This document shows, piece after piece, positions 6,140 to 9,577 of a DNA stretch of 64,000 bases (the first letter of the stretch is position 1; each line of letters starts with the position of its first letter). Source of the DNA: Acidobacteriota bacterium (GTDB lineage: Bacteria; Acidobacteriota; Blastocatellia; Chloracidobacteriales; Chloracidobacteriaceae); the NCBI GenBank assembly GCA_016208495.1, contig JACQXX010000063.1, positions 1-64,000 of the forward strand, written 5' to 3'. The translations under genes were made by a program, and so were the position numbers. The notes under the pieces were generated by a model. That model worked only from the letters and a program-made list of their open reading frames with translations, was not told where the DNA came from and searched no databases.

Positions 6140-6545
6140 GAGGTGTGGCCGAAAGTACTTGTCAACAGACTCGGTCTTCAAGGGCCGGGCTTGAGTCGCG
6201 TCGCCACGACGCCATCCTGCCGGATGGCCGGTGTGGGGAGATCGGTCCAAGCTCCGGTTGACCAGACCCCCGTGCAAATCACGGGAAACGATTGGGAAGA
6301 ATTCATAGGTACCTGCGGATGCCGCCTCAGTCCGCTGCCCTACGGTGACCGGTTAAACAGGCATGGGAGTCAGTGCCAGTGCTGGTCACGGCAAACCTTC
6401 CCAAATCCGGTCGAGAGGAAGCCGAATCCGGTCGGCGGTCACAGTCAGACCGGTACGCACTACCCGACGCAAGTCGGTGCGTGATGTACTCTTTTCACAT
6501 CACATCGAGGGCGGGAAGGATTCGTTCTTCCCGCTTTCGTATCAA
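6140..6545 (+). ncRNA. Candidate structured RNA of the IscB omega-RNA (HEARO) type, without its nuclease gene
   Basis: No protein-like frame fits this stretch, but it is dense in hairpins: GCGTCG/CGACGC (6198-6212), CCATCC/GGATGG (6212-6227), CCCGTG/CACGGG (6269-6285), CCGAC-GCAA-GTCGG with a GNRA loop (6464-6477), GTGATGT/ACATCAC (6481-6503) and GCGGGAA/TTCCCGC (6511-6534). It is followed at once by an IS200/IS605-type right end. The layout left end, structured RNA, right end is what remains of an IscB/IS605 element after loss of the ORF. The identity is inferred from layout and structure; no covariance-model score is available. Confidence 0.4.
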
Positions 6546-6549
6546 CTCA

Positions 6550-6602
6550 AAAAGGAGCGGCGTTTCCTCCCGGCCCAACCAGGACCGGGTCTCCACGCCG
6601 AA
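6550..6602 (+). mobile_element. IS200/IS605-type right-end hairpin
   Basis: A two-level hairpin pairs CGGCG (6558-6562) with CGCCG (6596-6600) and CCCGG (6569-6573) with CCGGG (6585-6589). The connecting phrases TTTCCTCC and TCTCCACGCC resemble the right ends of IS605-family and IscB/TnpB elements that I know. No transposase or tnpB/iscB gene is present. The element ends about 7 bases before the patatin start codon, so it supplies that gene's 5' leader. Confidence 0.5.
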
Positions 6603-6608
6603 GATAGG

Positions 6609-7973
6609 ATGAAGCATGAGTCGACAACGAACGTCCAGCGCATCAAAATTACCCCCGTTCCGTCCTCAACCAAAGCCAAAAAACGCTCCAAAACCGCTCT
6701 GGTCCTGGCCGGTGGCGGTGTGACAGGTGTGGTGTATGAAGTCGGTGTCTTACAGGCACTCACTCATTTCCTGACCGGCGAATTTACCCTCAATGATTTT
6801 GATATGGTCATGGGGTTGTCAGCCGGGTCGCTGGTTGGCTCGCTTCTGGTCAATGGCATCACCCCAGCCGAAATGATGGGTGCCATGGGCGAGCACCCCT
6901 CAACCACGCTCACAAAATTCTCAAAATGGGATGTCTTTCGACCAAATTTTGGTGAATTCTTTGAACGGGCCATGGGGTTGCCCTTTACGCTCACGCAGAA
7001 TCTCTGGAGAAATATTTCAAACTACACGCTGGGGAAAAATCCATACTCGGAACTGCTGGATGAAATTTTGCCGTCAGCCATTTTTACCAACAGCAAAGTC
7101 GCTGATTTTGTCCGCACCAATTTGCAGAATTTGGGCCGCACTAATGATTTTCGGGAACTGGCGAAAAAGTTCTATGTGATTGCCACTGAACTGGATACCG
7201 GCGACCGTGTGATTTTTGGCGATGAAGGCTATGACCACATTCCGATTTCAAAAGCGGTTCAGGCATCAACCGCGATTCCATTGTTTTACCGCCCGGTTCG
7301 GATTGGACGTCGTGACTATGTGGATGGCGCCATGCGCAAAACACTCCACATTGACATTGCGATTGAGAAGGGCGCTGAATTGATCATTTGTATTAATCCG
7401 GTGGTGCCCTTGCGCAATGACACTGAAAAGAAATCCATTCCGATGTTTGGCCATAAAGGGCGCTACATTTCGGACAAGGGATTTCAGCATGTCTGGCGGC
7501 AGATGCTGCGCTTGATGTTGCATTCGCGGATTCCCGCCGGGTTGGAACGCTATCGCCGGTTTTATCCCAATGTGGATATTATTTTGATTGAACCACGCGA
7601 AGACGACTACAAGATGTTCTTCCACAACATTATGGACTATGACGCACGCGTATCGGTTGCCGAGCACGGATACAAGACCATGATCGCCCGATTGTCGGAA
7701 CATTTTGAAGAATACGCCGCCATTTTCGCCCGTCACGGCATTGATATTCACCCACCCCGCAAGTCCGCCCACCACGCCACACCGCGCAGTTTTGACAACA
7801 CGCCACCTGCCCTTCGGCGAGTTCGCATTGCACAAGCCAACCATCGTGAGTTAAATCGGTTGCATTCGGTGCTGCAAAAACTTGACTCCAGGCTCGATTC
7901 ACTGGCTGAAGAGTCAGCCAAGCCTCCGATTCATCCTGAAGGAGAGTTCAAGAGTCGAGTCGCCAATGTATAG
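6609..7973 (+). CDS. Patatin-like phospholipase family protein
   Basis: The protein has 454 residues from the ATG at 6609; the frame is open further upstream but runs through the structured element. The patatin Ser-Asp dyad is intact: oxyanion-hole glycines G35-G37, nucleophile box GLSAG with Ser71, and DGA with Asp239. Members are cytoplasmic or peripheral lipid acyl hydrolases (phospholipase A or lysophospholipase activity). The C-terminal 100 residues are charged and variable. No signal peptide is visible. The gene overlaps the DUF512 gene by 8 bases (ATGTATAG), so the two are probably co-translated. The immediate leader is mobile-element sequence and lacks a strong ribosome site. Confidence 0.85.
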   Translation: MKHESTTNVQRIKITPVPSSTKAKKRSKTALVLAGGGVTGVVYEVGVLQALTHFLTGEFTLNDFDMVMGLSAGSLVGSLLVNGITPAEMMGAMGEHPSTTLTKFSKWDVFRPNFGEFFERAMGLPFTLTQNLWRNISNYTLGKNPYSELLDEILPSAIFTNSKVADFVRTNLQNLGRTNDFRELAKKFYVIATELDTGDRVIFGDEGYDHIPISKAVQASTAIPLFYRPVRIGRRDYVDGAMRKTLHIDIAIEKGAELIICINPVVPLRNDTEKKSIPMFGHKGRYISDKGFQHVWRQMLRLMLHSRIPAGLERYRRFYPNVDIILIEPREDDYKMFFHNIMDYDARVSVAEHGYKTMIARLSEHFEEYAAIFARHGIDIHPPRKSAHHATPRSFDNTPPALRRVRIAQANHRELNRLHSVLQKLDSRLDSLAEESAKPPIHPEGEFKSRVANV

Positions 7974-9409: not shown

Positions 9410-9493
9410 GCGGATGTGGCGGAATTGGCAGACGCGCATGGCTCAGGACCATGTGGGCTTCGGCCCTTGGAGGTTCAAGTCCTCTCATCCGCA
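9410..9493 (+). tRNA. tRNA-Leu (anticodon CAG)
   Basis: This is a full class II tRNA cloverleaf: acceptor GCGGATG/CATCCGC with discriminator A, D-arm around AATTGGCAGAC, anticodon stem CATGG/CCATG with loop CTCAGGA, long variable arm GGGCTTCGGCCC, and T-loop GTTCAAGTC. The 3' CCA is not encoded. Confidence 0.96.
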
Positions 9494-9503
9494 TTCCCCA
9501 TTT

Positions 9504-9577
9504 GCACCCGTAGCTCAGTTGGATAGAGCGCTTGACTACGAATCAAGAGGTCGGAAGTTCGAGTCTTCCCGGGTGTA
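9504..9577 (+). tRNA. tRNA-Arg (anticodon ACG)
   Basis: The acceptor GCACCCG pairs with CGGGTGT (one G-U), D-arm is AGCTCAGTTGGATAGAGC, anticodon stem CTTGA/TCAAG with loop CTACGAA, and T-loop GTTCGAGTC. The CCA is not encoded. It follows tRNA-Leu by 10 bases and was probably transcribed with it. The A34 wobble base implies TadA editing to inosine. Confidence 0.96.

Follow-up and report, generated by a model that had tools for sequence, protein, structure and literature searches.

The 64,000-nucleotide stretch of acidobacterial DNA analysed here (the window) very probably carries, directly 5' of the ATGAA that opens a patatin gene, a MITE-like, non-autonomous element derived from an IscB transposon. 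Judged by sequence, this stand-alone element (positions 6161-6608, + strand, 448 bp) begins with a left end and a complete omega RNA, then carries a module of hairpins where iscB would stand, and closes with an IS200/IS605-type right end. A sequence-only reading of the window had suggested a HEARO/omega-RNA-like element here, and scoring with the Rfam HEARO model (RF02033) by cmscan bears this out, as positions 6161-6426 (+) match the model over its full length (model positions 1-211) with 100.7 bits (E 1.6e-19; gathering cut-off 83 bits). We set the boundaries by aligning the 12 stand-alone copies of the genome and comparing them with its five iscB-bearing copies, which places the left edge at GTCAAC (6161) and the right edge at ..GAAGATAGG (6608), followed by ATGAA. 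The span proposed earlier, 6140-6602, starts 21 bases too early and ends 6 bases too soon.

Downstream of the omega RNA scaffold, the non-coding stretch from 6427 to 6550 proved as hairpin-dense as had been claimed (fold z-score -5.9, with none of 200 shuffles as good). It folds on the + strand into hairpin H1 (6428-6453), which lies 3' of the HEARO core and whose stem is also found in the iscB copies, H2 (6464-6477), which has the anticipated GNRA loop (GCAA), and H3 (6481-6503) and H4 (6506-6539), which are confined to stand-alone copies, the H3 region being without similarity to iscB elements. A Shine-Dalgarno-like AAGGAG (6552-6557, +) follows, 51 nt from the ATG when counted linearly and 8 nt when the adjoining right-end hairpin (6558-6600, +) is skipped. 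The hairpin expected at an IS605-type right end indeed folds there; by itself it is unexceptional among shuffles (z = -1.25), and the aligned parts of the right end are 86-93% identical to those of the five iscB elements. The ATGAA at 6609-6613 (+) is the target motif and presumed TAM, and its ATG, seven bases past 6602 as stated in the sequence-only reading, is the start codon of a gene for a patatin-like phospholipase of 454 aa (6609-7973, +; Pfam PF01734, 90.9 bits). Two tandem tRNA genes lie at 9410-9577 of the window.

The element belongs to a family. At E <= 0.001 the HEARO model matches the genome (8.4 Mb, 177 contigs) at 17 places, of which 14 exceed the cut-off; the 17 divide into 12 stand-alone copies of about 448-455 bp and five copies of 1594-1608 bp with intact iscB. 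The two kinds agree over ~285-335 bp at the left and ~33-74 bp at the right and differ in between. When the 12 stand-alones are aligned their edges are sharp, with unrelated sequence outside GTCAAC.. and ..GAAGATAGG (or close variants) plus ATGAA, so that there are, as in a MITE, 12 copies of ~450 bp with common ends before 12 different genes. There are five RRXRR (IscB) genes in the genome, and a HEARO lies immediately before every one of them. The proteins measure 414-425 aa (four are 83-89% identical to the first), all five have the RRXRR domain and four score over the cut-off for HNH (the fifth reaches 20.3 against 21.4 bits), and the protein of copy C19 aligns with solved IscB chains such as OgeuIscB. 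Since the window copy scores over the HEARO cut-off and same-ended copies stand beside intact iscB, it can be classed as an IscB-type element without its nuclease gene: an iscB with RRXRR/RuvC and HNH follows the RNA in five of the 17 same-ended copies and is lacking in the window copy. The sequence-only reading had called the element an orphan, which holds for this copy, but a search for iscB loci with the same right end, run as it had proposed, found five iscB-bearing relatives that have the left end in common as well. Its description as an IscB element that lost the nuclease gene likewise stands, amended in that the copy belongs to a stand-alone family of 12 members with a hairpin module of its own replacing iscB. 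A query with the whole element recovered the H3/H4 module in the genome only in the 12 stand-alones, besides a handful of short matches (16-36 bases, E > 0.02). Phages and plasmids yielded no DNA match. IscB is uncommon in the phylum (RRXRR in 6 of 396 genomes), and HEARO occurs in 8 of 58 relatives, the genome of the window included.

The fold of the RNA is conserved among the copies. Over all 17, 96.9% of the cells in HEARO base pairs can pair and double changes occur in 12 of 81 pairs, a number reached in none of 500 shuffles; three iscB copies contribute most of these double changes. In the 12 stand-alones taken alone only two cells are double changes, pairing is retained in 35 of 50 variant cells (random single changes would be expected to leave 28% paired), and variation is lower in paired columns (2.7%) than in unpaired ones (8.4%). 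This pattern fits selection on the omega RNA and could in part be inherited from (recent) masters. Double changes between copies also affect 15 of 31 predicted pairs in H1, H2 and H4, those of H1 falling between subtypes; the stem of H3 is kept in differing sequences, and because the alignment is shifted there we left H3 out of the pair count. For one member of each of the three sequence subtypes, the stretch after HEARO folds with z-scores of -5.9, -3.7 and -6.0. A clear hairpin plus T-run, making H4 terminator-like, was seen only in subtypes B and C and in three of eight stand-alones of relatives. In subtype A, to which the window copy belongs, the T-run is weak and a scan for consensus or standard terminators finds none, so we claim no terminator for the window element.

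Taken by itself, the ordinary right-end hairpin (21 of 200 shuffles fold as well) would agree with a chance fold, or with some other structured RNA mistaken for HEARO, but the full-length HEARO match and the 17 copies, five of them adjoining iscB, already refute this. It is rather unlikely that the element is an inert relic, i.e. a deletion derivative that is moved passively by transposase and whose RNA serves no nuclease. Such a relic would be in keeping with the fact that three of the 17 copies, including the stand-alones C85 and C119, fall below the HEARO cut-off, and that no cognate TnpA was found: none of the nine Y1 transposase matches in the genome lies beside these ends, and their loci share with the element only chance-level matches of 12-21 nt. 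The reduced variation of paired columns and the pairing retained in most variants speak against a relic, as does the presence in the same genome of five intact IscBs whose omega RNAs, where they align, share 75-94% identity with the stand-alones. Yet another possibility is that the RNA has been domesticated as a leader that regulates the patatin gene in cis; the position of the element between the promoter side and the start codon, with a Shine-Dalgarno-like motif and a hairpin, would suit this role, but the family also precedes 16 other, seemingly unrelated genes in the genome, and in G001, which belongs to the same family and another genus, the same two genes keep their order without an intervening HEARO, and the patatin ortholog (69% identical, likewise starting with ATGAAA) does without the element. 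We therefore see transposon-like behaviour, and domestication appears very improbable. G001 was also considered as a base-exact empty site and rejected, as its leader DNA does not align; it is accordingly an element-free locus with conserved gene order only.

In all 17 copies the right end abuts ATGAA; left flanks differ and have no common motif; a hairpin end next to a fixed short motif, with no target duplication, is what IS200/IS605 elements show. ATGA or GTGA next to HEARO has reportedly been noted by Weinberg. The position upstream of patatin given in the sequence-only reading can thus be sharpened to an insertion directly before the start codon, at the ATGAA that all copies abut. We scored an ATGAA as start-like when it opens an ORF of at least 100 aa and an in-frame stop lies within 40 codons upstream, joining the flanks of each copy by script. 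Nine of 17 copies passed, compared with 88 of 1426 ATGAA sites (6%) in 464 kb of the genome (P = 2e-7); with sites inside ORFs excluded the figures are 9 of 14 versus 88 of 444 (P = 4e-4), and a second comparison with a slightly different sample and threshold gave 9 of 17 versus 98 of 432 (P = 0.006). These P values are guides only, because the thresholds were picked after the copies had been seen and the 17 right ends are homologous. The remaining eight copies have no start-like ATG, and three of the 17 (C70b, C56 and C91) lie inside an ORF according to the ORF caller. By eye, the nine downstream proteins look like GatB, patatin, an HAD hydrolase, a zinc-ribbon protein, a sigma factor, a hybrid histidine kinase, a large repeat protein, an S41 protease and a MerR regulator; the Pfam scan covers patatin only. 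In all 17 copies an ORF of at least 90 aa in the same direction starts no more than ~330 nt from the right end, compared with 54% of 432 background sites (P = 3e-5). Sites inside ORFs are missing from this background, and a fairer figure is therefore the 14 of 14 copies that are not intragenic (~2e-4, calculated from the 54%). A site rich in Met-Lys/Asn starts, together with selection against gene breakage, explains part of these counts, and the excess suggests that leaders are favoured or better tolerated. At one copy (C91, L030) the insertion lies at the stop of an upstream ORF, which in the empty site also ended in the TGA of ATGA. Another (C85, L028) has a right-end hairpin with a perfect 19-bp stem and lies 18 nt before an ORF for an RseP-like protease.

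The right end can, we tentatively propose from its sequence context, supply a ribosome-binding site to the host gene. The right-end hairpin is immediately preceded by AGGAG or AAGGAG, and when the hairpin is skipped this motif lies 8-10 nt before the ATG in 14 of 17 copies (all except C47, C85 and C91); the same arrangement was found at 14 of 1422 background ATGAA sites and at two of the 88 start-like ones. The empty sites of C19, C103, C2 and C119 possess a normal linear motif that the insertion has displaced. Other right-end families show a comparable layout, ending exactly at ATGAAA starts (GGAGG at 7 nt in G013 C558 and G011 C109, GAGG at 7 nt in C57), and so do viral L119 and L120 (AAGGAGG at 8 nt, ATGG starts) and viral L118 (AAGGAGGT at 4 nt). 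In G013 C82 an AGGAG sits between hairpin and start, and by the same test C479, G004 and G005 C1b have no hairpin-skipped motif. Hairpins that bridge a Shine-Dalgarno sequence and the start codon are known from phage T4. A related theme occurs in IsrB, where the terminal omega-RNA hairpin contains the Shine-Dalgarno of isrB itself, in a different place from that in the window family (PMC9581776).

Alternatively, the GGAG of the right end could be kept for recognition by the transposase and not for translation. The exact 23-base right-end sequence recurs in four Micromonospora contigs (L056, L057, L058 and L059) that contain no HEARO at the Rfam cut-off, and in two of them (L056 and L059) it borders an opposite-strand ORF that is TnpB-like by eye, but these loci were found with a pattern that itself contained the motif. 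The adjoining ATGA begins a long ORF in three of the four (L056, L057 and L059), one of which looks like a D-Ala-D-Ala ligase. These TnpB elements are alike to the window family in end-hairpin sequence and ATGA flank and differ in phylum and in the opposite-strand TnpB-like ORF. It may be that ends and target are common to IscB and TnpB elements.

The target also appears to terminate the nuclease gene. In four of the five iscB copies the reading frame runs without a stop through the end of the element and terminates at the TGA within the target ATGA; in the fifth (C56) it ends at a TAA of its own. The stop is borrowed in the same way in G013 C82 (ATGA), G013 C479 (GTGA) and viral L118 (GTGA), which makes 7 of 22 iscB loci overall. 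The other 14 loci with readable frames have no clear borrowed stop; six are cellular, namely those of G001, G004, G005 (two) and G027 (two, of which L094 is ambiguous), and eight are viral. Among the nine viral loci in all, L118 alone borrows the stop and only L118-L120 occupy a start-codon position. An ATGA in which stop and start overlap is a familiar arrangement for translational coupling.

Several known systems resemble the window family in part. PATEs and MITEs are non-autonomous IS200/IS605 derivatives, and like them the family combines a length of ~450 bp, two retained ends, the absence of a protein and many copies; unlike them it has a complete guide RNA, and no TnpA with matching ends was found in the genome. 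With the IscB/HEARO (OMEGA) elements of the IS200/IS605 superfamily it has in common a HEARO RNA at the left end, an IS605-type hairpin at the right end, an RTGA-type right flank and a guide expected from the left flank, whereas the window copy lacks iscB and has H3 and H4 in its place. Two further stand-alone HEARO families turned up in relatives: one of ~390 bp in G013, of the same order (L078, L081, L082, L085 and L093), in which a pair of short hairpins with TAAC loops precedes the right-end hairpin, and another in G011 and G013 (L088, L092 and L096), with a terminator-like hairpin after the RNA and with all three copies ending at ATGAAA start codons. Ktedonobacter racemifer provides an example of stand-alone omega RNAs usable in trans by IscB. 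Such RNAs are already mentioned in PMC9581776, which cites earlier work, and they too have no nuclease of their own and an iscB elsewhere in the genome; the RNAs found here differ in that defined ends of a mobile element enclose them, their 3' module is structured and they often adjoin a start codon, and their trans activity is putative. HEARO, IscB, NTGA-type TAMs of IsrB and stand-alone omega RNAs usable by IscB are thus known. In the open-licence literature searched, which leaves the main IscB/HEARO papers outside, we found no account of start-codon docking, of iscB stop borrowing or of a ribosome site in the end.

By analogy with known IscB omega RNAs, whose 5' guide derives from the left flank, the predicted 16-nt guide of the window copy lies in the host leader just left of the element (6145-6160, +). 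It matches the genome exactly only at its own locus, and one other site has a single mismatch. We found no intact guide target followed by NTGA in the genome at up to two mismatches; at three mismatches there are three sites, as many as a backward-pattern control would give. NTGA-type TAMs are known for the sister family IsrB (PMC9581776), and in the occupied site the guide sequence is followed by GTCA. A Y1 transposase (TnpA) acting in trans would place the element before ATGAA, and the patatin promoter, to judge from position, would transcribe left flank (guide) and omega RNA as a single leader. An IscB encoded at another locus would then bind the stand-alone RNA and cut element-free alleles, in which the guide target adjoins ATGA. 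Whether the RNA is so used in trans seems to us evenly poised. The occupied site would be spared, because the inserted element separates guide target and TAM. After the cut the element would be copied back, if IscB has a retention or drive role such as PMC11870625 describes for TnpB. The right end would meanwhile keep the host gene translated, through the Shine-Dalgarno-like motif that comes to lie ~8 nt from the start codon across the hairpin.

Together these features allow a joint reading of start-codon docking, which we put forward as possible though somewhat less than probable: one ATGA would serve at once as insertion site and presumed TAM, as iscB stop in full copies and as host start codon, the right end would be a portable ribosome-binding site acting across the hairpin (7-10 nt), and the host promoter would transcribe guide and omega RNA. 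By docking in gene leaders the element would gain transcription of its guide and the host gene would be spared; the copies form a small transposon family that may travel in gene leaders and do the genes hardly any damage. With five nucleases and 12 nuclease-free guide RNAs of one family, the genome offers a natural test of one IscB serving many guides in trans. The start-codon position, if true, would offer an answer to two questions, namely how a guide outside the element comes to be transcribed and why an insertion before a gene does not silence it.
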